Assembly: GCA_001247695.2 (NCBI GenBank)
Contig: LGRX02028782.1
Location: forward strand, 38,258 to 102,257
Length of the DNA stretch: 64,000 nucleotides
Reading direction: 5' to 3'
Source: Cymbomonas tetramitiformis
Lineage: Eukaryota; Chlorophyta; Pyramimonadophyceae; Pyramimonadales; Pyramimonadaceae
Notes under the pieces: generated by a model
The model's database searches: none
Seen by the model: only the letters and a program-made list of their open reading frames with translations
Told to the model about the DNA's origin: nothing
Translations under genes and position numbers: made by a program
In this document: positions 1,001 through 62,600 of the stretch, piece after piece
How positions within the stretch are numbered: position 1 is the first letter of the stretch
Layout: every line of letters begins with the position of its first letter

Positions 1001-1023
1001 AAATTCCTGTTTTTGTAGGGGAA

Positions 1024-33746: not shown

Positions 33747-33761
33747 GCCCTGATTGACGAG

Positions 33762-37775: not shown

Positions 37776-37790
37776 CGATCACGGGATAAG

Positions 37791-41902: not shown

Positions 41903-42550
41903 ATGTCCTTTTATTCACGCTTAACCCTTCGTGGGCATGCGCGCGCGATGTTCGGCATTGCGTCGCATCTGGTTGCGTCCCATGCGACCACCGCGGTTGC
42001 TCCTACAGAACCTCCGGTTTTTAAACCTGCATGCCCCATCCTACAGCCCGCCGACGCTGCCAAGCTCCTTGACGAAACCTTGTTCACCCTTGGCACCGCT
42101 GGCTCTCATGAATACCGGATCCCTTGGGGTCCGCTTAATCGCCACGATCTTGACTGGTCCTGGGAAACCATACCGCGATCGCCAGTTCCAAAACTACTCC
42201 CAACGACGTATCTTCCAGTTTCTCGCGTACAGGATTTTATTCGGGGCGAAGGAAACTATGGATCCCCTTCAAATCAACCTAATCCGGAACAGTTTAACAT
42301 TGTGCGCCAAAGAAACGACGCCAAGGAAAAGAAACGCATACCTCCCAAAACTGACCGCACTCTCGCTAAACCTCGTCCCGCGCATGATGGTTGGCCCTAC
42401 AAACTGCCCATCCACTTCCCAACGTACGGTGGGCACACGACCACGCCCATCATGGATAGTGTTGCCATCTGTCTGCGGCAGCTGGGGTTGCAAGTGGTGT
42501 GGCAGCGAGGCCGCCGCAAGCTGCTGAGACGTGGTCAGCTTCGTAGTTAA
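41903..42550 (+). CDS. Protein of unknown function, 3' end probably chimeric
   Basis: Starts MSFYSRLTLRGH. Balanced composition with Trp/Pro-rich segments (WDWSW-like DLDWSWETIP, HDGWPYKLPIHFP) makes coding likely as far as about 42450. Beyond that the frame runs into the QP-repeat region of the opposite strand and is probably junction sequence. No domain recognised. It follows the small + gene by 55 bases, suggesting one transcription unit. Confidence 0.4.
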   Translation: MSFYSRLTLRGHARAMFGIASHLVASHATTAVAPTEPPVFKPACPILQPADAAKLLDETLFTLGTAGSHEYRIPWGPLNRHDLDWSWETIPRSPVPKLLPTTYLPVSRVQDFIRGEGNYGSPSNQPNPEQFNIVRQRNDAKEKKRIPPKTDRTLAKPRPAHDGWPYKLPIHFPTYGGHTTTPIMDSVAICLRQLGLQVVWQRGRRKLLRRGQLRS

Positions 42551-45859: not shown

Positions 45860-45928
45860 CGGACAACCATATGCTGACGGCAGAATCTGTATTGCGGATG
45901 ATTCAGGATTGCCTGGATGACATGGGTT

Positions 45929-46717
45929 TCAACACGACTGCCCGGAATCGTGGACACTCTCTTCACCGATCTGGACTCGTGTGTCCGCTGCATGCGTGTG
46001 GACACGCACACTCTCCTCCTTATCCCGAACACATGCGCCCGCAGCAAGTGTGTGTGTACACTCACGATTGTGCACATCCTCCTCGACCGGAACAAATGCA
46101 CCCGCAACAAGCGTGTGCGTATACGCATGATCATATACATTCTTCTCAGCCGGAACAAATGCACCCACAACAAGTGTGTGTGTATAAGCATGATTGTGCG
46201 CATTCTTCTCAGCCGGAACAAATGCACCCGCAGCAAGTGTGTGTGTATACGCATAGTTGTGCGTATCCTTCTCAGCCGGAACAACTGCACCCGCAGCAAG
46301 TGTGTGCGTATACACATCATCGTGTGTATTCACCCTGATCGGAACACACGCGTCCTCAGCGAGCGTGTGTATGTTTTCCTCAGCCGAAACCCTTTTATGC
46401 GTTGGCGTGTGTGCCACAGCCGGTATACGACCATCTACAGTGATCGTGTGCATAGGGACGTGCATATTCCCCCCAGCCGACATCCGCACATCCGCGGTGC
46501 ACACCAACGTGTGTATAAGGGCAGGCGCATCCCACTTAGCCGGTGTATGCACATCCGTGGTGTGCGCTGATGTGTATGCAAGGGTAGACGCATCCCCCTC
46601 AGCCGGTGTATGCACATCCGCGGTGTGCGCTGATGTGTGTGCAAGGGTAGACGCATCCCCCTCAGCCGGTGTATGCACATCCGTGGTGTGCGCCGATGTG
46701 TGTGCAAGGGTAGACAC
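45929..46717 (-). CDS. Thr/His/Ala-rich 21-residue-repeat region
   Basis: Two arrays of 63-bp units: THTLAAGAFVPAEK-type (about five, 45990-46330) and AHTSAHTADVHTPAEGDAST-type (about four, 46480-46720). The open frame extends the Gag-like protein of 46435-47754 in a neighbouring phase. No enzymatic motif. Confidence 0.4.
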   Translation of the reverse strand: MSTLAHTSAHTTDVHTPAEGDASTLAHTSAHTADVHTPAEGDASTLAYTSAHTTDVHTPAKWDAPALIHTLVCTADVRMSAGGNMHVPMHTITVDGRIPAVAHTPTHKRVSAEENIHTLAEDACVPIRVNTHDDVYTHTLAAGAVVPAEKDTHNYAYTHTLAAGAFVPAEKNAHNHAYTHTLVVGAFVPAEKNVYDHAYTHTLVAGAFVPVEEDVHNRECTHTLAAGACVRDKEESVRVHTHAADTRVQIGEESVHDSGQSC

Positions 46718-47754
46718 ATCCGGAACCCGAGTAACCGCATCAACCGTGTGGATTTGTGTGTGTGAGGGTGTTCATTCCCTTCATTAACCCGCTCATACAC
46801 CCCTGTGTATACCGGCGCTGCTGATTTAGAGCGGCACCTAGCAAGCTCTTTCCTCCGCGCCCGTCGCCGCTGGATATATTCTGACCCACAACTACCGAAT
46901 GATATCTCGTTGTGGTCAGCGTCGCCCACCCTGATGTCGGCTCCCTCTCGTGCTGCGTCCGCCGAACTTCCCGGATCCGGATGAGATTGGGCTACGGAGC
47001 CCCGCAGAGCATTCGAACCCGTCGCCGGCCGTCGATGATGTTGCTGATCGACATTTGCAGCACCCTGTGATGTATATACATTGGTACCACCATGTGTATA
47101 CGGCGTATACATATTCATGTATGATCCATCCACATCATTGCATGATGGCGCAGCCATCCGCACCGTGGCTGCCGATAATCCAGCGTGCGTCGTTGATGCC
47201 GGATATGCTCCATATGCCGACGATATCATTGGGGCCCCCATACACTGCGTTGACGATATCGGAGAATATCCCGGACATATCACCGGCGACGGTTCCCCCT
47301 CCCGCGGACATGTTTCCCAAGATACACCAACCACTGATGAAGACGGTAACCCTGTAAAATTCGTTGGTGATGTCGAAGGATATCCCGGATAATGCACCGG
47401 TGATGGCAGCTCCACTTGTGAATATATAGTCGATGGAGCTATCGGCACAGAATATGTCGGCGGCAGTACTGATATAGCCGCCGGTTTGTGCAGGATATGA
47501 TTAGCTCGCATATACGGGTGAATGCTCGCCGCCGATGAATACATAGGTGCGTTCGCTGCTGATGATGAATGTATATATGGTGATGGCATCATCGGAGCGG
47601 AATGAGCTTGTAGATGGGCGTATACTTGCGTTGCTGCAAATGACCTCGGAGCACATGCAATACTAGGTGCGTGCCCAACCGGATGAGTATACGTATATGG
47701 ATCCGTCGGTACAGCACCGGACACAACCAGGTTCACACCGGGACGCTGCATCAT
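46435..47754 (-). CDS. Pro/Ser/Tyr-rich Gag-like protein
   Basis: Homologous by position and content to 28047-29694: AGLSAATVRMAA is shared with AGLSAATVPMAA there, and both carry a basic patch (RRRARRKELARCR) before a repeat region. After about residue 320 the frame becomes the 63-bp repeat read in the wrong phase; the phase of 45929-46717 is the better continuation. Confidence 0.5.
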   Translation of the reverse strand: MMQRPGVNLVVSGAVPTDPYTYTHPVGHAPSIACAPRSFAATQVYAHLQAHSAPMMPSPYIHSSSAANAPMYSSAASIHPYMRANHILHKPAAISVLPPTYSVPIAPSTIYSQVELPSPVHYPGYPSTSPTNFTGLPSSSVVGVSWETCPREGEPSPVICPGYSPISSTQCMGAPMISSAYGAYPASTTHAGLSAATVRMAAPSCNDVDGSYMNMYTPYTHGGTNVYTSQGAANVDQQHHRRPATGSNALRGSVAQSHPDPGSSADAAREGADIRVGDADHNEISFGSCGSEYIQRRRARRKELARCRSKSAAPVYTGVYERVNEGNEHPHTHKSTRLMRLLGFRMCLPLHTHRRTPRMCIHRLRGMRLPLHTHQRTPRMCIHRLRGMRLPLHTHQRTPRMCIHRLSGMRLPLYTRWCAPRMCGCRLGGICTSLCTRSL

Positions 47755-48299
47755 GCCTTCCGAGGCCGAAGATCCGATACCATAGGGAAAATGCCTATTG
47801 GTGTATTCTGCAAAGTGCGGGTTCGCATGATCAAAAGCACACCGAGGTCGGACTATATCGTTGGGTCGTATGCGTGTGTGTACGGATAACGAATATTGCT
47901 GATATTGCTGATATTGCTGATGCCTAGATCCGCATTATACACGTACCAATGCGCACATATTTTGTAGACGCTGCCGACGAGTATAGTTGTTTATAAATAT
48001 CTGATAGCCGATCACCGTCGTCGTCTCCCCCCCAGATCTTCGTATAAAGCAACATAAGGATCACCGCAGCATACTAACATGCAACGGAAAACGACGCATC
48101 GCAATCATCGGACGAGGAATCGCCGATGCACACCGTACGACCACACGACAACGTAATAACGCCACAGTACACACATAATTAAAACCCATAGTACGTACAG
48201 AGAAAATTTCGCCAGGGCTCCGCAACACGATTTTGAACCGATACGTACGAACATCGCAGAGTGAAGAATTCGTCGAAAGAACACCCGTCCGCGTCATGA

Positions 48300-48542: not shown

Positions 48543-49265
48543 CGCCGCGGCACACCGGAATCGTCGTTGCCGTGCAAGTTAACAGGCCGCCGTTACACGC
48601 GCGCCATGGACGACGATGATTGCCGATGAATTAATTTACACCCGCCCGCCGCTGATCGCTCATTCAAATTGCACATTGCTGAATCACACCGATTCAGATA
48701 CCGACTTGAACAAAGCTATGCACAAAACCGCTAAGGTCCGCGAAACGTTGCCACACTGATGCCAATTGCACTGGGGTGCAAGGCATAGCTATTGAGTGAC
48801 TGTCGGGTTAGAGCTGTCGCAAAATTAGGTGCACCAAAATGCATAATGGACCTTAATGGACGATTTTTCGTGTTTTATTTGTGTTCGCACATTTTAGCAA
48901 CATTACGGATGCAAAAAAAGAACCGAACTTGAAATTTTTTATTTCCCCGCTTGAAACTGCTAAAAAATCTGTGTTTTAGGTATGTTAGGAACGTGTTAAC
49001 GCTAGACGCGGCATGTGTGCATGCAAGAATATGGTAATAACATTTTTCCGTGGTTTTTATTTGTTTTTTCTTTTCAGGTTAGGAAGTATGGTGTTCCAAA
49101 ATTGGCATGCCAGGAAGGTCAGGCGCACACCGCACATAGCATCCAAGGGAGAGATGTATCACTGTGGATTGCATAGCTAGCATATCCACGGTGAATACTA
49201 GAAAGTAATCAACATAATAGAATACAAATGAACCATAAAAAACTGAAAAACAAGGGTCCTTTCTC
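48543..49265. other. AT-rich spacer, no gene
   Basis: About 720 bases between the inverted element and the 3' end of the methyltransferase retroelement. No reading frame or repeat of note. It probably holds the 3' untranslated region of the latter and perhaps an LTR remnant. I compared it by eye with 62590-62890 and found no match. Confidence 0.4.
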
Positions 49266-51247
49266 CTACCGAGGGTGCCGGGTCATGTACTCCTGGAGGG
49301 ACATGAACTGCCCTCCAGGCCTCTGCCGGCTTGCCTGACACTGTGCACTCAGAAATTGCATCTCTTGCATGGAAAGCATGACCCCTTGAGGCTCCGGAAA
49401 GCCGCCGCCCATGCCATACCCTCCAGGGTAGGTGGGCAGCACGCCGGTCGGCGGCATGTACCCAGGTGCGCCTGCCTGCTGGGCCATGAACCCAGGTGCG
49501 CCTGCCTGCTGGGGCATGAACCCTGGGAAAATTCCAAGGTTCCCCCCATAGAAGTTCGCCATGGGGGGGGCAGCATATGTGGAGGCTCCAAGCCCTCGGC
49601 CTTTTCGGCCTTCCACAGTCTCCTCTTCGTTGGTGCCTTGCCCCCCTTCCCCCTCCTTGCATGCTTTTAGCTCTGCTGAGAGCTTGGCAACCTCAAGCTC
49701 GGCCTTGAGGATCTGCTTCTGCACTTGTAGTGCAGACAACCTTGCCTCCTCCTGGTTGGTCGCAGACGCCTCCCGCACGGGTTGCGCTGAGCGCAATTCC
49801 TGAGGGTCCTGGTGGACCGGCGGCTGCTGCTGCAGCCCCTGGAATCCTGGCTGCTGCTGCTGGTGCTGGTGCTGGTGCTGCTGCTGGTGTGGTGCTGGTG
49901 TCGCTGTTGCTGCTGCTGCTGCTGCTGCTGTTGTTCTTGGTGGTGGTGGTGGTGGTGCTGCTGCTGCTGCGTCTGCTGCTGTGGCTGCTGCTGCGGCGGC
50001 GGCTGCATTTGCGGTGCCTGCTGTTCTTGTTGTTGCTGCCGCGGCTGTTGCAAATGTTGCGATGGTTGCTGCTGCACGTGCTGCTGTCGCTGCTGGGGCT
50101 CCTCCTGTAAGTGGCTGCTCGCCAGAGCCGATATCGGCGTCGTCCCACCTGTCACGAACTGCCCCAGTTGTTCCAGACCAGCCGCCGCTGAAATGGTTTG
50201 CGACCCCTGCAGGGGGGTTGGCTGCAAATCAGCGAACAGCGCCTGAGGCACAGGGGACCCTGAGGTTCCCCCACTGGAGAAGGCCTGCAGCTCATCGAAC
50301 TCCATCTCCATCTCCTCATCGCGTTCTTCGTCCATGTCCGCGGCCGTCTCCTTCCCACCCCGCACAGCCACAAGGTCACTTCGGCGTTGCTTGGGGATGC
50401 GTGCTGGTGGAGAAGAAGCCTGTGCTGGTACAGAAGAAGCCTTCCTCTTCATCGGCCCCCCGCTCTTCCCCTTGCCCTCCTTCCCACCTCTCGACGATTC
50501 CACGGCCTTCGCCTTCTCACTCACAGCAGCCCCCCTCCCACCGCTGCCTTTCGCAGCCCGCCCGCTTGGGGCAGCAACAGCAGCACGTGCATTCCCTCTT
50601 CGAGGGCCACGAGCGGTGGGAGTGGTGGAAGGGGCGGGGAGGGTTAGGGCGGTTGGGGCGGTTGCGGCGGGGGCAACTGGATGGCCGAAGTAGAACGGCT
50701 TGAGCTCCCCCACATGGCTGTCTGGCAAACATGGCTTGGTAACCGCGGAGTAATACCTCAGCATCCCGATCGTCCCCGCCTGCAGCGCCACCTGGAAGGC
50801 GTCGACTGCCTCGCTCAGCCAGCCGGTCAGCTGCCCTCGCCTTTCGTATTCGGCAGTTCTGGCGCTGGTGAACATCCTGGGCTTGTTGTTCAACTTTGTC
50901 AGGTGGAACAAAGTCACCCTGCGCGGCCCCGTCTGCTCCGTCGACACGTCCCCCACTATGGGCCACGGCCCATATACCCACATCACCATGCCGACCTTGT
51001 TAGAGGTTGGCCTGTGGATGAACCCCCCAATCCATAAGAGGGCAGGGTGTTTCTCATGGACCATGAGCCGCCCAAACCCCTGTTCGTACCGAAAGACGTG
51101 ACGGAGGCTCAGGTTGTCTTTCTCGCTACAACCAAACACCGCGCAGTTGTTCGGTAACAGGTGCTCCAGCTTCGCCTCCTCCCACAGGGTCTTGATGCTG
51201 TACTGCGGGGGGGGCGCCTGGTAGAAGCTGGGAGGAGTCCACGCCAC
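49266..51247 (-). CDS. Continuation of oxygenase ORF with polyGln, unknown function
   Basis: Joined to the oxygenase frame by an indel in a run of seven A (51251-51257). Residues 1-190 look globular (LWEEAKLEHLLPNNCAVFG, MVMWVYGPWPIVGD, TEYERRG-like TAEYERRGQLTG). A basic Ser/Pro/Lys region with a likely nuclear signal (KRKASS) follows, then an acidic stretch and a long Gln/His/Ser run from CAG repeats (49850-50100). A second frameshift near 49790 leads to the C-terminal coiled-coil and Met/Gly/Pro-rich tail (frame 49796-49266, ending HPR). No catalytic motif recognised. Confidence 0.5.
49850..50110 (-). repeat. CAG/CTG triplet repeats coding polyGln
   Basis: Interrupted CTG/CAG runs with one poly-His segment. 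The repeat region coincides with a change of reading phase, a common site of slippage. Confidence 0.9.
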
Positions 51248-52406
51248 GAATTTTTTTATCCAACCCGAACTTCACAAATATCGGGTAGGTGGTGTTCTCC
51301 GGCAATACCACGTCCAACTCGTCCAGGTAGATGTGGGCGGATAAACGCGGCACCCCGCCGCACTTGTACTCCACCGCCCCATGCACCAACCTCCCATCGA
51401 AGAAGACCACCGACTTCTCCGTGAGGTGTAAGGTGACGGACTCCGCCTTCGACATGTCTTCGTCGTTCTCCACCACATGGCTTCCAGGATATACCCGGAA
51501 TTGGTAATCGTTCGTCAAGACGAGGAGCACACCGTACGCCCCCAGGTCGTAGTGGCTGGACTGCCTTTCAGCCCCGCCGATCGTCGTCAGGGCTGTGCGG
51601 CCCATTGACCCCTTTCGCACCTTCAAGCCCTTGCGCCGCAAGGACCGCTGCGTCAATTCGATGACGCTCTCACCAAGACGTACCATCCTCTTCTCCAACG
51701 CGGAGTCCTCCACGAGGTCGTTGATGAAACGCTTCGGGTCCAGTTTGGTCTTGACAGTGTCCGGATGACTCCCTGGTACCGATATCAGTTCCTTGAAGTT
51801 TCGCTGAGTATGCTCCAAGTTGATGGAGTCTTGAAATTCTGTTTCGAGGTCCGTTGCCGAGACAGGATCCTCCAGGTGGCCGACGACGTACCCATCCTCC
51901 TTCATCCTGCGTTCCCAGTCAACAGGCAGTAGCATGCCTGCAGGGGCCGCGGGGAATGGCATCCGGCTTACCTGAGGAACCCCCTTCGCCGCTGCTGCTG
52001 GTGTTGCTGCTGCACATGCTGAGGCCGATGCTGATGCTGCTGCGGCTCCTGCACCTGCTGGTGGTGGTGCTGCTGCTGCTGCTGTGGCTGCTGCTGCTGC
52101 TGCTGCTGCGGCGGCGGCGGCATTTCCAGGGGCTGGGTCTGGACTTGCTGTTGGGCTTGCTGGAGGTGTTGCAGGGGTTGATGAGCTCCGGGCAAGGGCT
52201 GCAACATGCCCTGCAGAGGCTGCTGCCGGGTCTGATGCAGCGTCTGCAGGGACTACTTGAGCGTCTGCAGGGGCTGCTGCTGCTGGAGCTGCACGCGTAC
52301 ACGAGTAACTACTGAGCGGTTCAGTGAACAAGCGCACGTCGCAGACTGCCACGATAAGACAGCTTCCTATTTTCGAAAAAGTTTTTATGTTCTGCAAAGT
52401 TATCAC
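51126..52406 (-). CDS. 2-oxoglutarate/Fe(II)-dependent oxygenase-like protein
   Basis: After an Ala/Pro-rich low-complexity N-terminus, the part from MLLPVDWERRMKEDGY onward reads as a double-stranded beta-helix oxygenase. Iron ligands HYD at 51554-51546 and a distal His in LVHGAVEY at 51383-51381 (55 residues on); the 2-oxoglutarate-binding Arg in VPRLSAHIY is twelve residues after it. The VYPGSH segment between them fits the phytanoyl/AlkB/TET superfamily; I cannot choose a subfamily. It is in the same phase as the upstream methyltransferase-like domain and leaves phase at an A7 run near 51254. Substrate unknown; oxidation of methylated bases is attractive given the neighbours, but unproven. 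Confidence 0.6.
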   Translation of the reverse strand: MITLQNIKTFSKIGSCLIVAVCDVRLFTEPLSSYSCTRAAPAAAAPADAQVVPADAASDPAAASAGHVAALARSSSTPATPPASPTASPDPAPGNAAAAAAAAAAAATAAAAAPPPAGAGAAAASASASACAAATPAAAAKGVPQVSRMPFPAAPAGMLLPVDWERRMKEDGYVVGHLEDPVSATDLETEFQDSINLEHTQRNFKELISVPGSHPDTVKTKLDPKRFINDLVEDSALEKRMVRLGESVIELTQRSLRRKGLKVRKGSMGRTALTTIGGAERQSSHYDLGAYGVLLVLTNDYQFRVYPGSHVVENDEDMSKAESVTLHLTEKSVVFFDGRLVHGAVEYKCGGVPRLSAHIYLDELDVVLPENTTYPIFVKFGLDKKIRGVDSSQLLPGAPPAVQHQDPVGGGEAGAPVTEQLRGVWL

Positions 52407-52490
52407 CTCGATACAAGCCCGAAATTCCTAACATCCCCCCTCTGTAGCTTTCAGCAATGACGGCACAGATTTGACCAATGAGGGCTGCAG

Positions 52491-53027
52491 TCATGTCACA
52501 TCCTCGGAGGTGATGTCATCCGGCGCGAACTTGCCCATACTGAAGGTGAACATTCCCACTCCACTCAGCTCCCCAGTCCGTAGCATCCTGGCGCGCAGCA
52601 AAGGGTTCTTGAAGACCAAGACCCACATACATCGTCGTCCAATAGGTCCATGCTCCAGATGCCCCAGCACGTGAAGTCTCCCAGCATGGCACAGCTCTCG
52701 GAAGTAGCGTGCCCGGCTCTCCGTCATGTCGGTCATGTAGTGCGATGGCACATGCACACAAGCCACCACACGGCTTGCAGCAACTACAAGTGGTAGTGCA
52801 ATGTCCAACACTGCAAACCAGGGTGACGTAACAACGGCGTCACACACCCCGTATTTCTCCTTCCACCTTCGATAATTACCTGGCTGCAAAGCATTCATGG
52901 CCTCCGGCCACTTCAGCTGCGGGTTCCAGTCATTGTTCATGACGTTCAGGTGATCTCAGTTGCCTGTCAACACACTGCCAATCACTCCAGTGCCAGCCCA
53001 AGGGCCCCACACCCGAGTCACCCGACT
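52491..53027 (-). pseudogene. Second methyltransferase-like domain (N4C/N6A type)
   Basis: A SAM-binding-like motif WGPWAGTGVIGSVL (usual form DPFAGTG) is followed by NND and then VVTSPWF, close to the (S/N/D)PP(Y/F/W) catalytic motif of N4-cytosine and N6-adenine methyltransferases but lacking one Pro. The rest (ACVHVPSHY, GPIGRRCMWVLVF) looks like an intact fold. The frame is broken by TGA at 52956-52958 between the two motifs, TAA at 53028-53030 upstream, and ends with TGA at 52491. Immediately upstream in the same phase is 53294-53031, helical and unrecognised. Possible alternatives are an RNA or protein methyltransferase. Confidence 0.5.
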
Positions 53028-53309
53028 TTAGTTGACCTCTTTGGCAAGCCGGTCTACCTCCTTCGGCACAGTCATCACTAGCTCCAAGCCCCAGTGTAGC
53101 ATGCTGGCGTTCTTGACTTGCACCCTCGTCATCTTCGCCACGTCTCCCCTCTTCTCAACCTCGTCCTGCTGCATCGCTGGCACCAAGTCTGCTCCCTTCA
53201 GCATCCTTGCCTTGACCTGCTGTTCAGCGCATTTCCTGCTCAGAATGGTCATGTGGCCTTCGTGCCATTGCCCCGGCATCAGCCTTTGCACCATCTCCGT
53301 GAGTACCTC

Positions 53310-53734
53310 CTAGTCACCCCAATCAATGCGGTCAGGCCAGTCACCCATGCTGCCTTCACTCCTGCCAATCTCTTCCTTTGACAAGGCTTGCCACGGCTCG
53401 GCAGCCCCTCCACGCAGCGCGCGCTTCGGCCCCACGTCGAACTCGAGCAGCCTCATTCCTTTCCCCAGCGCCTCCTTAAGCTTACCTTCAGCCTGAAGCA
53501 GCTTCTCCGAAAGCTCCGACTTGACCTCCACGAAAGAGGCAGTCACCTCCTGTGGCAAGCAGCTCGGGCATTGCCAGTCCCCTTCTGGCACGCTGTCCAG
53601 TGCAGGCTCCAAACACCACGTGTGGTAGCCCTTGTTGCACGTGTCACACAGCAACATGAACGCCTCCCCGTCCATCCTCTTACAGTACTCACATGCCAGA
53701 TGCTTGCTGGGCCTGGACCTGGTCAAGTCGTACT
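53310..53734 (-). CDS. PHD zinc finger domain fused behind integrase
   Basis: A complete Cys4-His-Cys3 PHD finger: CEYC, then CDTC, HTWC and CPSC, with the usual hydrophobic LLC before the third cysteine and GDW before the last pair. PHD fingers read histone H3 tails, so this could steer integration, the role played by chromodomains in chromoviruses. A coiled-coil-like Glu/Lys/Leu helix follows. If the MITE and one target copy are removed, the finger follows the integrase C-terminus in frame (279 bp is a multiple of three). It ends at TAG 53310-53312; the phase goes on into the next domain. Confidence 0.85.
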
Positions 53735-54005
53735 CAGGGAAGATATCTTACCGCAATTGGCCGGCCGCAGGCCGAACGGGAAGGCTGCTGGCCGAGGTGC
53801 GGCCGATGTTCCGCATTGGCTGCGGCCGAACTGAGTGGGCGAAAAATCTACAAAATTTCATGAAAATTTCACGATTTTTGATAATTATCATACTTAAAAT
53901 TAAAATTTCGCGCTTGCGGCGGGCGTCTGGCCGGTCTGGCCGAAACCTGGCCGATGGACAAAATCCGTGTTGGCCGAACGACATTTCAAGAAGATATCTT
54001 CCCTG
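53735..54005. mobile_element. hAT-type MITE, copy 2 (271 bp)
   Basis: Perfect 15-bp terminal inverted repeats: CAGGGAAGATATCTT at 53735-53749 and its reverse complement at 53991-54005. An 8-bp target duplication GTCGTACT lies at 53727-53734 and 54006-54013. The core shares AAAATTAAAATTT and CGGCGGGC words with the copy at 7152-7429, and both are GGCC-rich near the ends. It has no coding capacity and splits integrase from PHD finger. Confidence 0.95.
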
Positions 54006-55058
54006 GTCGTACTCGTCCTTGACCTGCAGATGGCATGGTGCAATGTTCTGCACCGTGCTCTTCTCCCTCGTCCGAGCACTGTCCTCCAGGACCACCACTC
54101 CGTCTCGTTGTATCTTCACCAACTTCAGGATGGCGGGCTTGGTGGCCACCTCTATGCCCGTGCGTGGCCTCTGGCGGATGTACACGAAGTCTCCCACCTG
54201 AAAGTTGTGCGGCTTGGGCACCTGCCCTCCACCTCTCCTTCCTTCATATAGCAACGTGTCTCGATGCTGAGCAACCTCCAAGTTGCAACCCGCCGTCACC
54301 ATGAGCTCCTTCACCACCTTGGCCCTGTGCACCAGGTCACGGACCCTCGTGTCGTACTCATTCTTCACCTCCTTGACGTCGAAGTCCAGAGGAGGTCGGC
54401 TCCTCAAGGCTGGCGGCACCGTGGCCTCCTGTGCGAAAAGAAGCGTGAAGGGTGCCACCTTGAGTGACTCCTGCACAGCGGCGTTGTAGCTCAGCACCAG
54501 TGACCACAGCAGCTCGTCCCACGCAACGCCCAAGCCCTGGTCGAGCGCTATCTTCTTGAGGCAGTACTTGATTGTTCTGACCACCCTCTCCGTCAGCCCA
54601 TTGCCTTCTGGTGAGTTGGGAGAAGTCACCCTGCGGTCTATGAGACAGGCTCGACACAACTCCTTGAATTCCCCTTCAAACTCCGTACCTCCATCCACCA
54701 GGCACTCTGCCGGTGCTCCGAAGACCGACAACACGTGATTCCGGAACGCGTTGGCAATGGTCACGGCTTCCTTGTTGGGTATAGGAACACAGATGATGAA
54801 GCGGGTGTAGTGCTCCGTCATGATGAGCACCCTGGTGTTCCCGGACTTTGTAGGATCCCGTGTCGGCCGCGCCAAGCCCAGTGACCATCGGTACATGAAG
54901 GACTTGATCTCCAGAGGGGTCAGCACTGCGGCCTCCCTTGCGTAGTGGGTCTTCACTCTCGAGCACGTCTTGCACTGCGTGACTACCGCCACCACGTCTT
55001 TCTTCATGTTCACCCACCAATTGCGCTGCCACAAGAGGTTCAAGGTCCGCCGAATTCC
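54006..55058 (-). pseudogene. Retroviral-type integrase of the methyltransferase element
   Basis: The zinc-binding region is HDRTGH (before the TAG at 55059) then CKTC. In the core, the first catalytic Asp appears replaced by Gly (YRWSLGLARP where W-x-x-D is expected). The second is present in VDGGTEF, and the Glu in NGLTERVVRT. The C-terminal part has the FQVGDFVYIRQR block common to gypsy integrases. It is cut from its C-terminal PHD region by the MITE and from the upstream part by a stop. The substitution and stop make it inactive in this copy. Confidence 0.8.
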
Positions 55059-56534
55059 CTAATGCCCCGTCCTGTCATGGTAGGTGCGGACCAACTCCAA
55101 GCGGTCAGCGGGTTTGGGAACCCTCAGCTTCTTGCCGGCGTATGTGATTAAGTATATCTCGTCCGTGGCCTCGTCCCACCGGTGACGCGCAGCCCGTTTC
55201 TTGATTCGGTTGGCCATCTCCGCTGGCGGCTCGACAGTGCCCCGGGATTTGAGCCACCTAAGGCACCATTCACCATCATGAATGTCCTCGAAGTCCTCGC
55301 GCTGCTCCTGCTGCTGCGCAACACTGGCAATCAGCTCCACGAGGCGAGTGGTGTCCTTCAGCGCCGGGAGTCTCGTGGGCTTCTCCTGAACTGGCGGCCT
55401 CCAAGTAGGCACCTCTGTCACCGAAGGTTCCGTCTGCGTCGTCGGCGCCGCCTTCCTGAACCCCGTAGCACTGCGACCTCTGTACTGTGCCGCGCTGAAC
55501 GGTTGCATCTCCCACCGTTTCTTCCTCTGCTGGAACTTCGCCCCCAGCCCGTGAGTGCCCTTGTGCGCCCGCTTGTGCATCTCCTGCAGCTTGGCGTCCA
55601 CATGCTCTCTCCCAACTTGCAACTCCGATTTGGCGACATGCTGAGTGTACTGGTTGGATCCTGAGACCCACTCTGCTGCACTAGCCTGTTCCGGCTGTCG
55701 TGCTGTCCCCCCAGCACTGACCCAATCTCCCTCCTCGGGCTCCCAAGCTGGTGAGTCACATGTCTCCTCGGCTTGGTGCTGCTCCTTGCTGTAGGGCAAG
55801 CCCAATCTGCTGGCTTCTGCGGCTGCGTACATTAACTCCACTGCTCGGCGATCCATCGCCAAGCCCAGAACCCTCGCCAGCTTCCCATCGTCCAGCCTGT
55901 CAGCTGAGCGCAACTCTGTGACAGAGTAGCCCATGGCGTGCGCTTTCTCATCGAGGTTCGGCTCCCGGCACTTGGGCAGCTCCTTGCTCTCCACACTCCT
56001 GACCAATGACCCCATGCGAGGCTCACGGAAAGCGAAGGAGTTCTGTGTGGCCATGATTGTCGGGAGAGCGCGCATTGGTTCCCCCTTGACGTTCGCGACA
56101 TGATACGGCGCCTCGTCAGTGGTGACCACCTCCCTGGGCTGCCACCCATCCTCCAGGATGTCGGTCACGTAGCGCTGTGGCCTCTCCACACGTGCCATCA
56201 CTGAGTTAAACTGGTTGTTCTGGAACAGGTTGCTCCAGAAAGCTCGGAGCCGATGTGCGTACGAACCAGCCTGCGCGGCGTCGAATGACACTGGCTGCCC
56301 CACGAACTCCATGATGCGAGGAAAGACTTCCTCCCTCATCCTCGTCCCTGGTCCATGTGCCAGAAGTGAGACGTTCTCCAGTATATACCCTGGAGGCCTC
56401 TGTGGCTGCAGCTGCTGCAGCGCCGACAATGCCCTCACGGCATGGTAGAACAGGCGGCTGTGCCTGCCATCCAGGCCAGCCTGATTTCCTGCCGGAGACA
56501 AGTCTTGGCAGAAAATCCACAAACCATGATCCAC
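55059..56534 (-). pseudogene. C-terminal half of DNMT domain plus linker to integrase
   Basis: Continues the cytosine methyltransferase in the phase one base off from the upstream frame. Visible: CQDLSPAG (end of motif IV), YILENVS (motif VI), QAGSYAHRLRAFWSNLF (motif VIII, DNMT3/DRM-like), a target-recognition stretch with LPTIMATQNS, EKAHAMGY and VLGLAMDRRAVELM (motif X-like). A hydrophilic linker and the first part of the integrase zinc finger follow, ending at TAG 55059-55061. The indel lies in GAAAATCC at 56511-56518, exactly at the Pro of the PCQ motif. Confidence 0.85.
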
Positions 56535-59500
56535 CTCTCTCCAGCAAGCGCCCCAGCGTCAACGAAGTGCTGTGCCGTAATCTGCTCCAGGTCAGCTGGT
56601 AGTTGCTCCAGCTTGGTGGCAGATGTGGGGAAAAGCTCCGGGTAGCGCCTGCTGAGTGCAAAGCAACGAGCCCTAGCCACCGCCCGTGCCGCAGGTGAGA
56701 TGTCCTGGTACAAGTACTGGTTCACCTTGACACCATTGCGCAAAAGCATTTCCAGCCCTGCACACAACCCACCACATGGTTCGTAGCAGGTGACTCCTTC
56801 CTTCCTGGCTTCGCGAAAGAATGACTTGGCCACCACCCTGGTGTCAATCTTCTTGGGCTTCTTCAGCACGCCATCCTCCATCACCTCCTCATAGTACAGC
56901 GCTGGAGAGCCCTCTCCCTGCATTCCCGTTGCGGGTTGCACCTGACTGAGTGCTTTCCAAGCCGCGTACTGCAGCCTACCAGTGTCACCGTACGAGTCCG
57001 GGAGGTCAGTGTCGAACAAGGTCCCCACATTGCACTCCAGCTCTTCTCGGTGGTGTACGTCGAACAGCCGATGCACAGGCCCCGTGCCCAACTGCTCACG
57101 TGCTTGTAGCAGGCAGTAATTCGCAATCTGCAGTTCAGGGTCCACCTCATCACCGATGGGTGGGTCTTCAGTCAGCAGCTTGCACCAGGAGTCGCAAAAG
57201 CCCCTCTCGCAGTGCTCGAGGTAGCTGGCCTCTATGGGTTCTCCATGGGAGCGCTCCAACCTGGCGCCTGTCTCGTCAGTGGTTGACGGCAGCTGGTACC
57301 GCGACGGCACCTCAGCGTTCTCGTTCTGGGGCCCAGGTCGATACCGGACCGTGAAGTCGAACTCCTGAAGGCTGATGGCACATCTGAGGTGCTGGCCCTG
57401 AAGGTCCGTCCTCTCCATGAGTGTGGTGAGTGGCGAGTGATCTGTCACCAGCGTGAAGTGCACCCCGTGCAAGTACTGCCTCATTGTGCGCACCGCCCAC
57501 ACCACTGCCAGCATATCACCTTGGTAGCTGGCGTACTGCCTCTCAGTCTTCCCCAAGGATCGGCTGATGGCAACACAGATGTGCTCAACACCGTCTTCGT
57601 CCTTCTGCCCGAGCACCGCACCGATTCCGTACTTGCTCCAATCAGTGTACAGGATGATGGGCTTGTCGTAGTCTATGGGCCTCAGGCATCTCCCCGAACA
57701 GAGAGCATCTTTCAGCTTCTGCAGCGACTCATCCTGCTCAGGACCCCAAGCTGCCTTGATGTCCGTGACCTCCTTCCTCAGCAGGTCATTGAGAGGCCTA
57801 GCCAGCTCCGAGTAGTTAGGGCCTCCAATCTCCCCAACCAAGCCTTTGTAGTAGTTCATGAGCCCAAGAATAGAGCGCAGACCCGTCTTGTCATCCGGCT
57901 TCGGCAGCTCCTGGATCGCCTTGGACTTCGCCTCCTGGGCCCCGATGGTGTTGTGACCGATTCTGTACCCGAGGAAGTCTACGGTGCTTGCGCCAAAGGT
58001 AGACTTCCCTGAATGCAGCCTGATCCCCGCGTCCCCAAGTGTACGGAGCACCTTCTCGACGTCCTTGATGTGCTGTGCGGCGGTGTCTGAGTACACCACC
58101 ACATCATCAACATAGCACACAGTGCAATATTGAAGCATCCTGAGCTCGTAGTCCATGATCCTGACGAACGCTGCCGTAGCCCCCGCTGCCCCGAATGGCA
58201 TGGAGGTGTACCGATATAGCCGATTGCCCCACCAGAAGGCTGTCTTGTCCCGGTCCTCGTCGGTGGTCATGGGGATCTGGTGGAAGGCCTTGGTGGCGTC
58301 AAGAGTGGTTTTGAACTTGGCCTTGGCTGCCTTCTGGTACAGCTCCTCCGGCCGGTGCGGAACCGTCTTGTCTTTGAGAGACAGACGGTTGCACCGTCGG
58401 AGGTCCACGCAGAAGCGCGTGGATGTCCACAAACCGGTCTCGTGGTCCTTCTTGCCCGCCACCACAACGTTGCTGGCGTGCTTGCAGTGTATCGAAGCGG
58501 GCTCAATGAAACCGTACTCCAACAACTCCCTGCAGTGAATGTTGATGATCTCCGTCTCCCCCGGGCTGTACTTCCTGGGCCTCTCGTAAGCGACCTTGCT
58601 CTCGTCCTCGAAAGGGATGGAGAAGGTGCCGTGCTCCGCTTTGCCATGGTAGCCCTTGAGATCCTGGGGCTTGTTGGCGAAGCAGTAGCTGCACCTCCGG
58701 ATGACGTCGCGCATCTGGTCCCAGTTCTCGTCGGTGAAGTCCGGGTGTCCACCAAACGTGGCGTTCAACTCGGTGTCTAGCCATGCAGCTTCGTCCTTGG
58801 TCACAGAAGTCTTCCCCCCAGGCTGTAGCTCCTCGATCACCGTGTACGGCAGCACCTCCTGCTCAGCCATTGAGCATTCCCAACCGGTGTCCCACTGTGC
58901 GGAAGACCGATGCACGTCCCAAGTCACCGCGTGAGACTGCTGCTGCGAATGTGCCCTGCCAAGTCCACCACCGCCGGGTGCGCCCTGGAACATGCACGCC
59001 ATGGCCACCCACAGGATGCCAAGCAACAATGCGAAAAACCGAAAAAATCGTGTTAGTCCGCTTCTTGGGGCTGGTGGATGAGCCGCTGTTATGCACGTCA
59101 ACAACCTCCACCCCCCGTGCAGTAAGCGGAGCTTTCCACCAGCTGCAAAGAACACCACCATGATGGTCGTCATGATGACGTACAACGTCTGTGCGGCCCG
59201 ATAATGCCTGACCAAGTTCCCCACCTGCTGTAGCCGCTGGGCGAACCTCGGCCTGTGCATGTACTTCGGTGTTGCACTTAGCTCTGCTCGACCTCGTGCC
59301 ACCACGTTATGAAGTGTACTGACGGTCCGATTGAAGAAGCTCACCTCTTCTTCCCGTGTTGATGTCACACCAGGCTCCGCAGCGTTGCCTGTGGTGTGGC
59401 CATTGGTGGCTTCGCCCACCCATAACAGCTTGCAGTAGATGGCAGCTGTCCTCAAATACCGAACTTCCGAAGATAACGCGACCAACAGTGAAAAGGTTGC

Positions 59501-59872
59501 GCTGTAAGGTTGCCACCAGCACCCGATCAGTGCCAATATTACCCGTAGAATGAAGGCGCTCGTGGTGCCCTGCATGGCGTGGTGACCACCCATCACCCTC
59601 CAAGCAGCGCACAGGGTTAGCATGATGCCATCCGCCATTGCCCGTGTGCGTGATCGTGATGTCTGGGCACCAGTGCTGTGCCACACTATTCTCGTCACCG
59701 TTCTCTGGCACTCACACAGGAGCCACCTGTACGTGAGTGCTGTTAGGCACCATAGAGAGTGCCCGATTAGCTCTCCTAAGGCCCATGCTGGCAACAGCAT
59801 GTGGCGCCCCAGGGATGGTGAGGTGATTACCACCAGTGCTGCCAGCAGCAGTGTCACCACGTACCCCCACAC
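56435..59872 (-). CDS. Polyprotein: membrane region, RT, RNase H, N-terminal half of C5 DNMT
   Basis: 1,145 residues. Residues 1-290 contain about five hydrophobic segments long enough to span a membrane (for example VVTLLLAALVVITS, FILRVILALIGCWW, LYVIMTTIMVVFFAAGG, FALLLGILWVAMACMF). The gypsy-type RT follows, with FCVDLRRCNRLS and YVDD near residue 587 (about 58110). RNase H has ILYTDWSKYGIGAVLG and TLVTDHSPL. From residue about 1020 comes DNMT motif I (CYEPCGGLCAGLE) and YQDISPAA, up to VCGF where the frame breaks. An RNase H-DNMT-integrase order means the methyltransferase is built into the polyprotein, not carried behind it. The first 290 residues match no family I know. Confidence 0.85.
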   Translation of the reverse strand: MWGYVVTLLLAALVVITSPSLGRHMLLPAWALGELIGHSLWCLTALTYRWLLCECQRTVTRIVWHSTGAQTSRSRTRAMADGIMLTLCAAWRVMGGHHAMQGTTSAFILRVILALIGCWWQPYSATFSLLVALSSEVRYLRTAAIYCKLLWVGEATNGHTTGNAAEPGVTSTREEEVSFFNRTVSTLHNVVARGRAELSATPKYMHRPRFAQRLQQVGNLVRHYRAAQTLYVIMTTIMVVFFAAGGKLRLLHGGWRLLTCITAAHPPAPRSGLTRFFRFFALLLGILWVAMACMFQGAPGGGGLGRAHSQQQSHAVTWDVHRSSAQWDTGWECSMAEQEVLPYTVIEELQPGGKTSVTKDEAAWLDTELNATFGGHPDFTDENWDQMRDVIRRCSYCFANKPQDLKGYHGKAEHGTFSIPFEDESKVAYERPRKYSPGETEIINIHCRELLEYGFIEPASIHCKHASNVVVAGKKDHETGLWTSTRFCVDLRRCNRLSLKDKTVPHRPEELYQKAAKAKFKTTLDATKAFHQIPMTTDEDRDKTAFWWGNRLYRYTSMPFGAAGATAAFVRIMDYELRMLQYCTVCYVDDVVVYSDTAAQHIKDVEKVLRTLGDAGIRLHSGKSTFGASTVDFLGYRIGHNTIGAQEAKSKAIQELPKPDDKTGLRSILGLMNYYKGLVGEIGGPNYSELARPLNDLLRKEVTDIKAAWGPEQDESLQKLKDALCSGRCLRPIDYDKPIILYTDWSKYGIGAVLGQKDEDGVEHICVAISRSLGKTERQYASYQGDMLAVVWAVRTMRQYLHGVHFTLVTDHSPLTTLMERTDLQGQHLRCAISLQEFDFTVRYRPGPQNENAEVPSRYQLPSTTDETGARLERSHGEPIEASYLEHCERGFCDSWCKLLTEDPPIGDEVDPELQIANYCLLQAREQLGTGPVHRLFDVHHREELECNVGTLFDTDLPDSYGDTGRLQYAAWKALSQVQPATGMQGEGSPALYYEEVMEDGVLKKPKKIDTRVVAKSFFREARKEGVTCYEPCGGLCAGLEMLLRNGVKVNQYLYQDISPAARAVARARCFALSRRYPELFPTSATKLEQLPADLEQITAQHFVDAGALAGERWIMVCGFSAKTCLRQEIRLAWMAGTAACSTMP

Positions 59873-59922
59873 CAGCTGTCTATGCCGAACAACCGGCTTA
59901 CCTGGTTCCAGGCCAGGGCAGC

Positions 59923-62511
59923 TTACTGGTCTGAGCCTCCGGGCGCTGCGGTCCGTCGGCTCTGGTGAAAATCCGTCTTCTTGTTGGTGTCAACCACTAC
60001 TGAGGGTTGCACCCGCTTCTTGCTCACGGCTGAAGCACTACGCTGGCCAGTTTTCTGTTTTCTGACGTCCTGTGGTGGGAACGATAGGTCACCGCTGTCG
60101 GCCGTCTCCTCCAAATCAGGGTACGTGAAGCAGATGCCAGTCTCTTCCACTTGCTGTCCGTTCTGCGCCTGCCCGCGCAACTTCTTGTTCTCCTCATTCA
60201 ACTCGTCCGCATTCTTCAACACGGCCTCGAGTTTTCCCTCCAGGATGCTGCGTGTAGCTTGGAGATCCTTCTGTTGCTCCACTGCCTTCGCGCGGTGTCT
60301 CTTCAGGTCCCACTCCAGGAGCGTGGCTCGTTCTAGAGCACAGTTCTTCTGCTTCATGAATTTGAGCTTCTCGTTGATGGATTTTCGCATCACCTCGTTG
60401 CGAGCTTCAACTTTCCTCTCAAGCCTGACCACCATGTCCCTGAGCTCCCCCACATCCTCATCGTCCTTTGCAAGCGTCTCCTCGAGCTCCTTGGCCTTGT
60501 CCTCTGCTTTTGCCAGTGCCCCCTCGAGCTCCTCCACCTTCTCCTCGGCTATCTCGGCCCTCTCCTCGAGCTCCACCAAGAGCTGCACCGTGTCACTGAC
60601 AGGTGGTGAGGGTTGAGTTCGACTCTCCACTTCGGGTTCTTCGCGTAGCAGCTGTGCGAAGAGGGAGAGTGGCTCTCTGTGGATGGTCGTGACCTCGAGA
60701 TGGCTTACCCAGCGAAGTGCGTTGAACTTTCTGTGGTTCTCCAGGAGGTAAAGTTCGTTGAAGGACAGATCCACGATCTTCCCTTCCTGTCGGCAGTACT
60801 CCTCGTCCTCGAAGATGTAGTACAAGTTCTTAACGTTTGGGTGTGCGCGCATCTTGAGCACGTGCACGGTGTTGCCCACCTTCCTGGAACCATCTGTGTA
60901 GATGTGCTCCATGATGTCCTGCGCCACTTTCTCGCCATCCTGGATGTCCTCGAAGTGCTGTTCGAGTGTGTGAGGCAGTCCCAGGTGGCCACCACTGTTT
61001 CTTTGTGCTCGACTCTGGCCTCCCAGGCACAGGTAGCCTGCCATCGAGTGAGCGACGGACCTGATGTACTTCTGCTTGACCTTGTTGTCGATGAACATCA
61101 TGCCGACCCCCCGCAGTGTGTTCCCTTCGCCAGCGAGAATCTTCAGGTTGCCATCGGTGGTCTTCCGATACCTGACCACCAACACCGTCTGGTTTGGTTG
61201 GATCTTGAGCCATCTTAACCCCCTGATGTCCAGCCATTGGTTTCCTGCCTCCTCCCTCTCGTGACCACAGCTGGCGTGCTGAAGATCAAGTGGGCTGTAG
61301 ACGAGCTGTGCAGGCTCTCTCGGGTCAAAAGGCTTGTCGGTCGTGGTCATGGTCTCAGGGACGAGGTGTCGTACTAGCTGAGCAGGTACCACCGGCTTCA
61401 GGCTGTCCTTCCAGACCGTCACCATGGTGTCCATGTCGTCATCCTCCAAGTCCACCGGTGTCTTGGACTTCACCAGCTTGATGTCCTTCGCGTTCACCCG
61501 TGCAGGTGTCTTCCGTTTCGCTGATCTTGGCGGTGCCGGAGCCCTCCTCTCGGAGTAACCGGCCAATGTCTCCTGGGCTGCAATCTCGGAGTTGCAGGCC
61601 TTCAGCATTGAAGAGCCATCCCATATCCCAAGATACTCCCGTGCTGCGTGGTAGTTGTCGAACACCACTCCTGAGCCACCCTCCCCGTCTGTGACAGGAT
61701 AGAACTTCTGAGTACCCCTTGCCTTGTTGTTGCGGATGATGAGCTTGGGTGCCTTGTCGTGTCCTTGCTCCACCTCCTGGTACTGGTCATAAATCAGTTG
61801 CCTGAGGAAGTTGAGGTCAACCTTCCTCGACACCCTCAAGTGCTGGTACATCCAGCACCCCGCGCCCTCGTAGTAGTGGGGCAGCTGCAACTCTGACTCC
61901 AGCTTGGCTGCAAAGCTGCAATCGGCAGGTGAATGGTTCAGAGTGGCCTGCGCGATGCTCAGGGCGTCATCTGCTGGCTTCGTCCTGACACAGAACTTGT
62001 GCACCTTCTGGTCCCACATTAGTGTGCCAACTATGGGGCCAGAAGGATAAACCTGCCCCTCACACAACGAGCGCTGGAGCTCTTCCAGCTTCTCGTCGTG
62101 TGCCTCATGGAGCGCTTCGTAGTCGGGCTCGACCACCGTGAATTCACTGCCTAGGTTAGGCACCACCGAATGCCACCACTCCATGGTGCACTTGGTGTAT
62201 GGATCCCACTTCTGGTCCACCGAGGAAAAGTCAGGCCACCTGAGTCTCTCGTTCGGGACCACCTTCTCCTGTTGGCAGCGAGCGAACTTGACCTTGGTCT
62301 CCTTCTCGTTTACCTTCTCCACAATGTCGCACAGCCTCTGGTAACCATCCCCGGAGGTGTACAACCTCTGTTGCCTCCACGAGCCACCCTCATCACTGAA
62401 CTCCTCCTCGAGGTCACCCCAGCAGTGCACCATGCACCCCTTCCATGGGCGGTGTGCAGTGATTAGGAATTCTGGGTCTAATTCCGCTATCTGCTTCTCC
62501 GTCAAAGGCAC
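59923..62511 (-). CDS. ORF1 of the methyltransferase retroelement, unknown with coiled coil
   Basis: 862 residues upstream of and in the same direction as the polyprotein, 50 bp apart. The N-terminal two-thirds are globular and unfamiliar (WGDLEEEF, PYTKCTMEWWHSVVP, GTLMWDQKVHKFCVRTK, QWLDIRGLRWLKIQPNQ). The C-terminal third (about residues 620-800) is a Glu/Lys/Leu heptad coiled coil, ending in a basic tail. The 62509-62511 codon is GTG, and the frame stays open upstream to about 62600, so the real start lies further 5' or on another exon. By position it should be Gag-like, but there is no zinc knuckle. Confidence 0.5.
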   Translation of the reverse strand: MPLTEKQIAELDPEFLITAHRPWKGCMVHCWGDLEEEFSDEGGSWRQQRLYTSGDGYQRLCDIVEKVNEKETKVKFARCQQEKVVPNERLRWPDFSSVDQKWDPYTKCTMEWWHSVVPNLGSEFTVVEPDYEALHEAHDEKLEELQRSLCEGQVYPSGPIVGTLMWDQKVHKFCVRTKPADDALSIAQATLNHSPADCSFAAKLESELQLPHYYEGAGCWMYQHLRVSRKVDLNFLRQLIYDQYQEVEQGHDKAPKLIIRNNKARGTQKFYPVTDGEGGSGVVFDNYHAAREYLGIWDGSSMLKACNSEIAAQETLAGYSERRAPAPPRSAKRKTPARVNAKDIKLVKSKTPVDLEDDDMDTMVTVWKDSLKPVVPAQLVRHLVPETMTTTDKPFDPREPAQLVYSPLDLQHASCGHEREEAGNQWLDIRGLRWLKIQPNQTVLVVRYRKTTDGNLKILAGEGNTLRGVGMMFIDNKVKQKYIRSVAHSMAGYLCLGGQSRAQRNSGGHLGLPHTLEQHFEDIQDGEKVAQDIMEHIYTDGSRKVGNTVHVLKMRAHPNVKNLYYIFEDEEYCRQEGKIVDLSFNELYLLENHRKFNALRWVSHLEVTTIHREPLSLFAQLLREEPEVESRTQPSPPVSDTVQLLVELEERAEIAEEKVEELEGALAKAEDKAKELEETLAKDDEDVGELRDMVVRLERKVEARNEVMRKSINEKLKFMKQKNCALERATLLEWDLKRHRAKAVEQQKDLQATRSILEGKLEAVLKNADELNEENKKLRGQAQNGQQVEETGICFTYPDLEETADSGDLSFPPQDVRKQKTGQRSASAVSKKRVQPSVVVDTNKKTDFHQSRRTAAPGGSDQ

Positions 62512-62600
62512 ACACCGTGTACGTGGGAGAAGGTCCAGCCATTCTGTCCTGGTCTCCTCCTCCAGGAGCTTCTGCGTGTAACACGCTATTCGGTGAAAAT

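Follow-up and report, generated by a model that had tools for sequence, protein, structure and literature searches.

A Gypsy-type retrotransposon of the green alga Cymbomonas tetramitiformis with a DNMT3-type methyltransferase, a PHD finger and a putative second methyltransferase in one reading frame

Introduction

Retroelements bearing a DNA methyltransferase (DNMT) pose a puzzle: why would a genomic parasite carry its own silencing enzyme? A locus of the prasinophyte Cymbomonas tetramitiformis raises this question anew. In the window, i.e. the whole stretch of 64,000 nucleotides analysed here (assembly GCA_001247695.2, contig LGRX02028782.1, positions 38,258 to 102,257), an initial annotation made from the sequence alone had described one minus-strand retroelement at positions 49266-62600, in which a Gypsy reverse transcriptase (RT), RNase H, a C5 DNMT and an integrase are followed by a PHD finger, a second methyltransferase and a 2-oxoglutarate (2OG) oxygenase, hence a set to write, read and possibly erase. 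Which of these domains belong to the element, and what could they do for it? We consider it probable that the locus holds an old Gypsy-type long terminal repeat (LTR) element joining RT, RNase H, a DNMT3-type methyltransferase, integrase, a PHD finger and an adenine-type (N6A/N4C-like) methyltransferase in one open reading frame (ORF), and this assessment takes in the proposals made below that the element primes its own reverse transcription, integrates as a reopened circle and marks its own DNA. The case is carried by direct observations, namely the shared ORF, selection on each of its domains, split terminal repeats, 4-bp target duplications and an 11-nt complementarity. The methyltransferases and the PHD finger of the annotated set are retained; its erasing part is not, the oxygenase belonging to another repeat.

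Intact copies unite the domains in one ORF

The assembly (851.7 Mb in 25,745 contigs) contains intact relatives of the window copy, in which the second of two ORFs (ORF2) encodes 2398 amino acids and runs in a single frame through RT, RNase H, the DNMT3-type methyltransferase, integrase, PHD finger and second methyltransferase-like domain, in this order (contigs C1905, C1237, C17782 and C24634). A protein search with ORF2 scored 20 copies, which is a lower bound; all were full length at 98-100% identity and 19 were free of stops. These copies form a subfamily related to that of the window, not identical to it; the window's own subfamily is represented by C273 and C9638, where the methyltransferase fragment (95% identity) lies in open frames of 2405 and 2402 amino acids. 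The shared full-length ORF2 in 20 of 20 copies rules out that the PHD finger and the second methyltransferase are neighbouring host genes. Their joint origin with Pol, proposed in the initial annotation from phase, strand and spacing, is thus borne out by the common frame, and instead of ending before positions 53310 or 52491, as the annotation expected of copies if the last domains were foreign, the intact ORF2 continues through both of them. In the window itself Pfam confirmed the annotated minus-strand order with matches to RVT_1 (2.5e-21), RNase H (1.4e-30), DNA_methylase (2.2e-5), Integrase_H2C2 (2.5e-9) and rve (1.4e-6, below the curated cut-off), and six-frame analysis placed the PHD and second methyltransferase-like segments downstream, in the frames that had been reported. 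The succession of RT, RNase H and integrase, with Gypsy-type RT_RNaseH, H2C2 and rve domains, is that of Ty3/Gypsy elements. Further matches in NCBIfam (dcm, transposase-type and group II RT) all fell short of their own cut-offs.

ORF1 of C1905 encodes 2168 amino acids and shares 85 nt with ORF2, in the -1 frame. By eye it contains a zinc-knuckle-like stretch and a protease-like DTGA motif, and its Pfam match to Asp_protease_2 (0.013) lies below the cut-off. As a separate observation, the part of ORF2 that precedes RT (window 59989-58900, minus strand; L017:1085-2200) shows hydrophobic segments resembling membrane helices near residues 260 and 310, which occur in both subfamilies despite little sequence conservation.

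Selection and common descent

Ratios of nonsynonymous to synonymous divergence (dN/dS) were obtained by the Nei-Gojobori method after removal of stop codons, saturated pairs being left without dS or ratio. Between C24634 and C20827 they were 0.02 for RT-RNase H, 0.08 for DNMT, 0.05 for integrase, 0.04 for the PHD finger (67 codons, dS 1.43), 0.03 for the second methyltransferase and 0.25 for the ORF2 N-terminus, values which indicate purifying selection on every ORF2 domain. The window copy and its near twin C3701 yielded mixed ratios (DNMT 0.81, second linker 1.05, first linker 0.48, integrase 0.34, second methyltransferase 0.34, and 0.00 over the 67 codons of the PHD finger), as would be expected of recently dead copies.

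A search with the DNMT region retrieved 59 proteins among the best 7999 candidates scored, from the sources jgi, ena, lgn, ncbi and eukprot; the organisms named are Cymbomonas, with C. tetramitiformis proteins matching at 98% and 91% identity, and Haematococcus lacustris, and beyond these the set is probably mostly metagenomic. BLAST found RT-RNase H in 55, DNMT in all 59, integrase in 54 and the PHD finger in 52 of them, some of the proteins being fragments. Over 47 proteins, Mantel correlations with RT distances reached 0.89 for DNMT, 0.91 for integrase and 0.85 for PHD (p 0.001 each); over the 36 proteins from outside Cymbomonas they were 0.69, 0.74 and 0.55. These three domains made up the comparison, only five non-Cymbomonas proteins having qualified for the second methyltransferase.

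Putative writers and reader

The C5 methyltransferase of the element is, judged by sequence, of the DNMT3 type. The domain of an intact copy matched 25 PDB entries, which are DNMT3A, 3C and 3B besides one named only DNA methyltransferase, and its best solved relative is DNMT3A (E 1.4e-4). Among 60 aligned proteins the motif-IV cysteine is kept in 54, the EN of motif VI in 57 and the RxR motif in 58, and motif IV reads PCQ in 18. The PHD finger, whose eight ligands are all complete in 50 of 60 proteins, sits after the integrase, where other Gypsy elements have chromodomains. The CpG observed/expected ratio of two complete copies was 0.74, their flanks having 0.87 and 0.74; for the window copy it was 0.71, compared with 0.91 for window positions 1-48000, a mild difference which is not decisive.

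Methyltransferase homology of the C-terminal domain, as distinct from activity, is well supported by its motifs and by matches in relatives. In Cymbomonas it carries DPWAGTG, ND and TSPWF; the relatives P0050 and P0052 have DPFAGSG with TSPPF or SSPPF. The phage DNA methyltransferase family phrog_799 matched the cut domain of P0052 at 1e-10 and the full-length proteins P0053, P0050, P0031, P0036 and P0035 at 3.6e-7 to 2e-4, and P0052 also matched MethyltransfD12 (2.5e-4, below the cut-off). For this domain the window ORF and the sequences nearest to it, the P0012 fragment and P0066, gave no methyltransferase match in Pfam or PHROGs, and PDB searches with the methyltransferase alignment and with one member returned nothing useful. 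It could then be argued that the domain is a degenerate, non-catalytic methyltransferase fold that merely binds DNA or RNA, the element writing 5-methylcytosine (5mC) at most. TSPWF is indeed a non-canonical motif IV, the motifs are lost in Haematococcus P0039 (SCPDP), and BLAST found the domain in 29 of the 59 relatives, some of them fragments, leaving it undetected in 30. We nevertheless regard a dead fold as rather unlikely, in view of a dN/dS of 0.03, about as low as that of RT, of the canonical motifs in P0050 and P0052 and of the phrog_799 and D12 matches.

Split repeats, target duplications and a candidate self-primer

The initial annotation expected several copies with one domain order between LTRs. 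The domain order holds and full LTRs do not, standard ones being ruled out by repeats split into A1 alone at the 5' end and B1-A2-B2 at the 3' end. Complete copies read A1 (384 bp in C1905), ORF1, ORF2, polypurine tract, B1 (225 bp), GC, A2 and B2; in the five copies examined B1-A2-B2 was present in all five and A1 was seen for four. The same layout recurs in the diverged subfamily of the window, in C3701 (3' part only) and in C19528:17080-30417. A1 starts with TGTCAC and B2 ends with GCGACA. Both outer ends were visible in eight copies, six of them with a 4-bp target duplication (C1905 CCCT, C1224 GCAA, C466 ATTG, C386 ACCC, C10018 AGGC and C19528 GCTC, the first and last read by eye). Of 17 retrieved segments, 11 had the 3' end where it was predicted; for the 5' end the count was 7 of 10, and seven more 5' segments fell beyond the contig end. 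TG...CA termini and 4-bp duplications are Ty3/Gypsy features that the element shows; two identical complete LTRs are one that it lacks.

An A-coding-B-A-B layout is typical of DIRS elements (PMC5890265), and insertion by a tyrosine recombinase supplied in trans, as in DIRS/Ngaro, might account for the split repeats; an ORF elsewhere in the window has a weak Phage_integrase match, and two of the eight copies lack a duplication. This we hold to be highly unlikely, given that duplications in the other six copies and the TG...CA ends fit a DDE integrase, the D, D and E of which are intact in the element's own ORF. The element proteins scanned had no Phage_integrase match, the DDE integrase of ORF2 being found instead.

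Tf1 primes its own reverse transcription, about 11 nt of the RNA 5' end being complementary to a primer site beside the 5' repeat. In the Cymbomonas element AAACAAAAATG follows directly on A1 in C1905, C1237, C20827 and C19528. Its exact 11-nt complement is contained in A1 of C1905 and C1237, at position 204 of the repeat, and likewise in A1 of the C19528 sister copy and in A2 of C20827. Beyond the 11 nt the sequence differs between subfamilies. The 11-mer occurred in 1 of 20000 shuffles of A1, a control that kept mononucleotide and not dinucleotide composition. A tRNA primer site was rejected, no TGG lying within 20 nt after A1 of C1905. The complementarity in two diverged subfamilies suggests self-primed reverse transcription.

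From these elements we infer a route that would lead from the split repeats to the genomic copies. Transcription would begin around position 204 of A1; by folding its leading 11 nt back onto the site that directly follows A1, the RNA would prime its own reverse transcription as in Tf1. A polypurine tract before B1 and a primer site after A1 would give the complementary DNA (cDNA) an LTR of the form B-GC-A with a TG start and a CA end; joining of the cDNA ends would create an A|B junction, matching the joint between A2 and B2. Such a circle could be reopened in one LTR at GACAGCTGTC, the palindrome where B meets A, with loss of GC, upon which the integrase would insert A-...-B-GC-A-B, exactly the layout found in the genome. 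Split repeats combined with 4-bp duplications would thereby offer a testable route for a DDE-integrase element that resembles DIRS. During or after synthesis the Pol-bound methyltransferases may mark the cDNA, which might then be tolerated as self or assume a chosen type of chromatin; guidance of the intasome through the histone H3 tail could come from the PHD finger, in its chromodomain position.

The methyltransferases might instead be directed at the DNA of the host, of rival elements or of viruses, in line with the antiviral hypothesis put forward for element-borne methylases (PMC6338049). This is unlikely in our judgement: as parts of Pol, alongside RT and integrase, they would have the cDNA as their nearest substrate, as has also been argued for other elements (PMC5890265).

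Several points weigh against the reading of a self-priming, self-marking Gypsy element, besides the altered motifs and patchy detection of the second methyltransferase. Motif IV of the DNMT is ECQ, not PCQ, in 25 of 60 relatives, and KnitGypsy-Dnmt3, the closest published counterpart, has a DNMT that produced no methylation in yeast, a result that its authors called inconclusive as human DNMT3B failed too (PMC5890265). No canonical slippery heptamer was seen in the ORF1/ORF2 overlap of the four copies scanned. C1237 and C20827 are the copies without a target duplication, and the predicted 3' and 5' ends were missing in 6 of 17 and 3 of 10 retrieved segments. The primer complement in A2 has one mismatch in the C19528 sister copy and two in C3701, and the A1 shuffles did not preserve dinucleotide composition.

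It is tempting to extend the reading to a green-algal Pol with a kit for two marks, 5mC plus N6-methyladenine or N4-methylcytosine, and a reader, assembled separately in two unrelated Gypsy lineages of Cymbomonas (the second is described below), the first of which would prime itself and integrate as a reopened circle, its new copies carrying both marks from the outset and being positioned by the reader; this fuller version is speculative, and we would not yet expect it to hold in all its parts. If it were true, self-marking would turn a host silencing mark into a passport. In any case the polyprotein of this family combines the DNMT with another modification-type enzyme and a histone reader, with all of these domains under selection, and the many nearly identical intact copies in one alga should make methylation marks directly readable by nanopore sequencing.

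Relation to known elements

The nearest published system is KnitGypsy-Dnmt3 of Klebsormidium nitens (de Mendoza et al. 2018, PMC5890265), a Gypsy Pol with a Dnmt3-type methyltransferase under purifying selection and DIRS-like A-coding-B-A-B repeats. The Cymbomonas element resembles it in its Dnmt3 domain within a Gypsy Pol, its DIRS-like repeat order and its selected DNMT. Unlike KnitGypsy-Dnmt3 as described in the main text, it has a PHD finger and a second methyltransferase in the same ORF, 4-bp duplications, a candidate self-primer and a prasinophyte host. That main text contains neither the term PHD nor primer binding, mentions site duplication for LINE elements only, and in the parts covered describes no second methyltransferase for KnitGypsy-Dnmt3. 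None of the 59 DNMT relatives, drawn from the best 7999 candidates and in many cases without an organism name, is named Klebsormidium.

SymbioDIRS-Dnmt3, whose isolated DNMT domains methylated CG in yeast, likewise has a Dnmt3-type domain in Pol and split repeats; it uses a tyrosine recombinase where the Cymbomonas element has a DDE integrase, and the passages covered describe neither a PHD finger nor an adenine-type methyltransferase for it (PMC5890265). The same paper argues that the methyltransferases of its own elements are placed to act on cDNA. DAM- and DCM-encoding Gypsy and DIRS elements are known from green algae and charophytes, among others (PMC6338049); they have adenine-type methylase domains in retroelement polyproteins, as the Cymbomonas element putatively does, and in the passages covered no single one is described with both kinds of methylase or with a PHD finger (PMC5890265; PMC6338049). 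Sola1-1_Ec32 and its green and red algal relatives, whose accessory gene for a ParB and N4C/N6A methyltransferase is thought to modify the element's own sequence, resemble our element, with its putative N4C/N6A-like domain, as algal mobile DNA carrying an N4C/N6A-type methyltransferase (PMC12477816). They differ from this retroelement in being DNA transposons with a separate gene on the opposite strand, without RT or DNMT. Chromodomain Gypsy elements are also mentioned there (PMC12477816). The Cymbomonas element departs from DIRS/Ngaro in its DDE integrase and target duplications, with no tyrosine recombinase in the scanned proteins. Chromoviruses and Tf1/sushi elements carry a reader domain behind the integrase and have LTRs that are not split; we know of none with a methyltransferase, and unlike in chromoviruses the reader behind the Cymbomonas integrase is a PHD finger. 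A DNMT, a PHD finger and a second methyltransferase in one retroelement were not found described in the passages covered of the open-access literature searched, and four features appear new relative to the KnitGypsy-Dnmt3 kind: PHD finger, second methyltransferase, target duplications and primer site.

The window copy and its neighbouring oxygenase repeat

The copy in the window is a decayed Gypsy-type element truncated at both ends (Table 1). Its limits, 62580 and 52293 in place of the annotated 62600 and 49266, appeared as sharp borders when window 63500-49000 was used as DNA query against the assembly and 18 of 8206 candidates were scored; among these, copies of the stretch at 83-98% identity lay in C3701, C16527, C21128 and the window's own contig, C19528. 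Positions 63500-62580 are a different repeat, found at four places with 97-99% identity. The 5' truncation falls inside ORF1 and the 3' cut inside repeat B1. The DNMT is divided between two frames, the first catalytic D of the integrase is G, with the residues of the relatives intact, and the integrase stop is common to C3701. The insert between integrase and PHD finger is absent from C3701 and C16527 and shared with C18478, the identical duplicate. Some 8 kb ahead of the window, C19528 carries a sister copy that has both of its ends and a 4-bp duplication (C19528:17080-30417; L067, L029, L027).

Table 1. Features of the window copy and of the adjoining oxygenase repeat.
Feature	Position in window	Strand	Basis and remarks
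Decayed retroelement copy, both ends truncated	52293..62580	-	Search boundaries q921, q11208; related copies C3701, C19528, C16527
ORF1, 3' part (Gag/protease ORF)	59923..62580	-	Window open frame 62604-59923
ORF2, first part: hydrophobic N-terminus, RT, RNase H, DNMT start	56435..59989	-	Pfam; hydropathy
RT	about 57959-58345	-	Pfam
RNase H	about 57359-57748	-	Pfam
DNMT3-type C5 methyltransferase	55830..56790	-	Frame change near 56435-56558; limits approximate, by eye
Integrase (H2C2 and DDE core)	54000..55120	-	In-frame stop at 55058/55059 boundary; first catalytic D altered
Insert of 271 bp resembling a miniature inverted-repeat transposable element	53735..54005	-	12-bp terminal inverted repeats, 8-bp direct repeat
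PHD finger (C4HC3)	53562..53690	-	Pfam PHD 2.8e-10 in related Cymbomonas protein P0012
C-terminal linker and second methyltransferase-like domain	52491..53479	-	Three in-frame stops; alignment A1; phrog_799 in relatives
Repeat B1, first 142 nt	52293..52434	-	q11067-11208; polypurine tract GAGGGGGGA before, junction after
Separate 3.48-kb repeat, not part of the element	48811..52293	-	Seven places at 87-96% over nearly all of query 1-3483, further partial ones
2OG-oxygenase-like ORF in the separate repeat	51126..51992	-	HxD...H...R pattern by eye

The oxygenase-like ORF, annotated as the last part of the element, lies in a separate repeat and is missing from the independent element copies retrieved. 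It had no Pfam match up to E 10, and against PDB its alignment found a sole weak match, to a putative oxygenase (E 1.1). That positions 49266-62600 form one element, oxygenase included, would agree with the common strand, the tight spacing and a second occurrence of the junction in C18478 (G000:C18478:15500-18700, L065), itself one of the seven places at which the repeat was found. The border search had missed C18478, and absence from its list was not taken as proof. Over 3201 bp, insert and junction alike, C18478 matches the window at 100% identity; it therefore represents the same insertion seen twice and not independent support. As a further point in favour of a single element, C16105 (70705-80138) has the oxygenase repeat 7.3 kb downstream of the element methyltransferase on the same strand, not at the junction of the window. 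Against this stand the five element copies whose 3' side was retrieved, all of which continue into B1-A2-B2, and the 69 retrieved loci, none of which holds the oxygenase ORF once the window locus (L024) and its duplicate L065 are set aside. Conversely, upstream of the oxygenase repeat five copies had no match to the element or B1 save for one 18-bp antisense stretch (about 1.5 kb examined in C17090, 300 nt each in C25734, C8858 and C5494, and 62 nt, up to the contig end, in C18479). Because element copies occur without the oxygenase, and copies of its repeat without the element upstream, the oxygenase is a neighbour and not a part of the element, and a single element spanning the whole stretch is barely credible.

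Two observations accompany these loci. After the C18478 junction the oxygenase repeat is 96% alike, which may reflect a haplotype, a recent duplication or an assembly effect; and in C16105 the element methyltransferase lies in an open frame of 1472 amino acids, followed by B1 and then by sequence unlike the A2 of C3701 and C19528.

A second Gypsy family and other features of the window

A second, unrelated Gypsy family occupies window positions 30071-38609 on the plus strand and is represented by C174 (L036/L037), in which a single frame encodes protease, RT, RNase H, a Dam domain (1.2e-11, above the cut-off), integrase, a chromodomain and a C5 methyltransferase; NPPY and SPPC motifs were recognized by eye. 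The C5 domain, of bacterial type and at the Pol C-terminus, matches PF00145 below the cut-off both in C174 (0.0085) and in the window copy (1.7e-4), and in the latter it also matches phrog_757 (1.8e-14). The window copy has a weak Dam match (0.036) and its C5 domain is separated by a stop. A search with this C5 domain gave 140 scored matches, and of the 17 candidates scored for the C174 protein six, one of them the protein itself, matched almost from end to end without a stop. An analogous kit in a second unrelated family of the window suggests that the combination itself is useful.

Elsewhere in the window, ORFs between positions 40200 and 46800 are composed of 24-, 27-, 33- and 63-nt repeats, with no Pfam match in 42269-45928 and 46435-47934. 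A DIRS-like unit at 22516-26423 on the plus strand comprises an ORF with RVT_3/RVT_1 and then one with an ALOG-type domain (3.3e-26) and a Phage_integrase match (7.4e-4, below the cut-off). Finally, a free-standing C5 methyltransferase gene is repeated in C25294, C20845, C8, C6, C2041, C154 and C16883, each of the seven places having an open frame of 383-401 amino acids that gives an almost full-length match to DNA_methylase.

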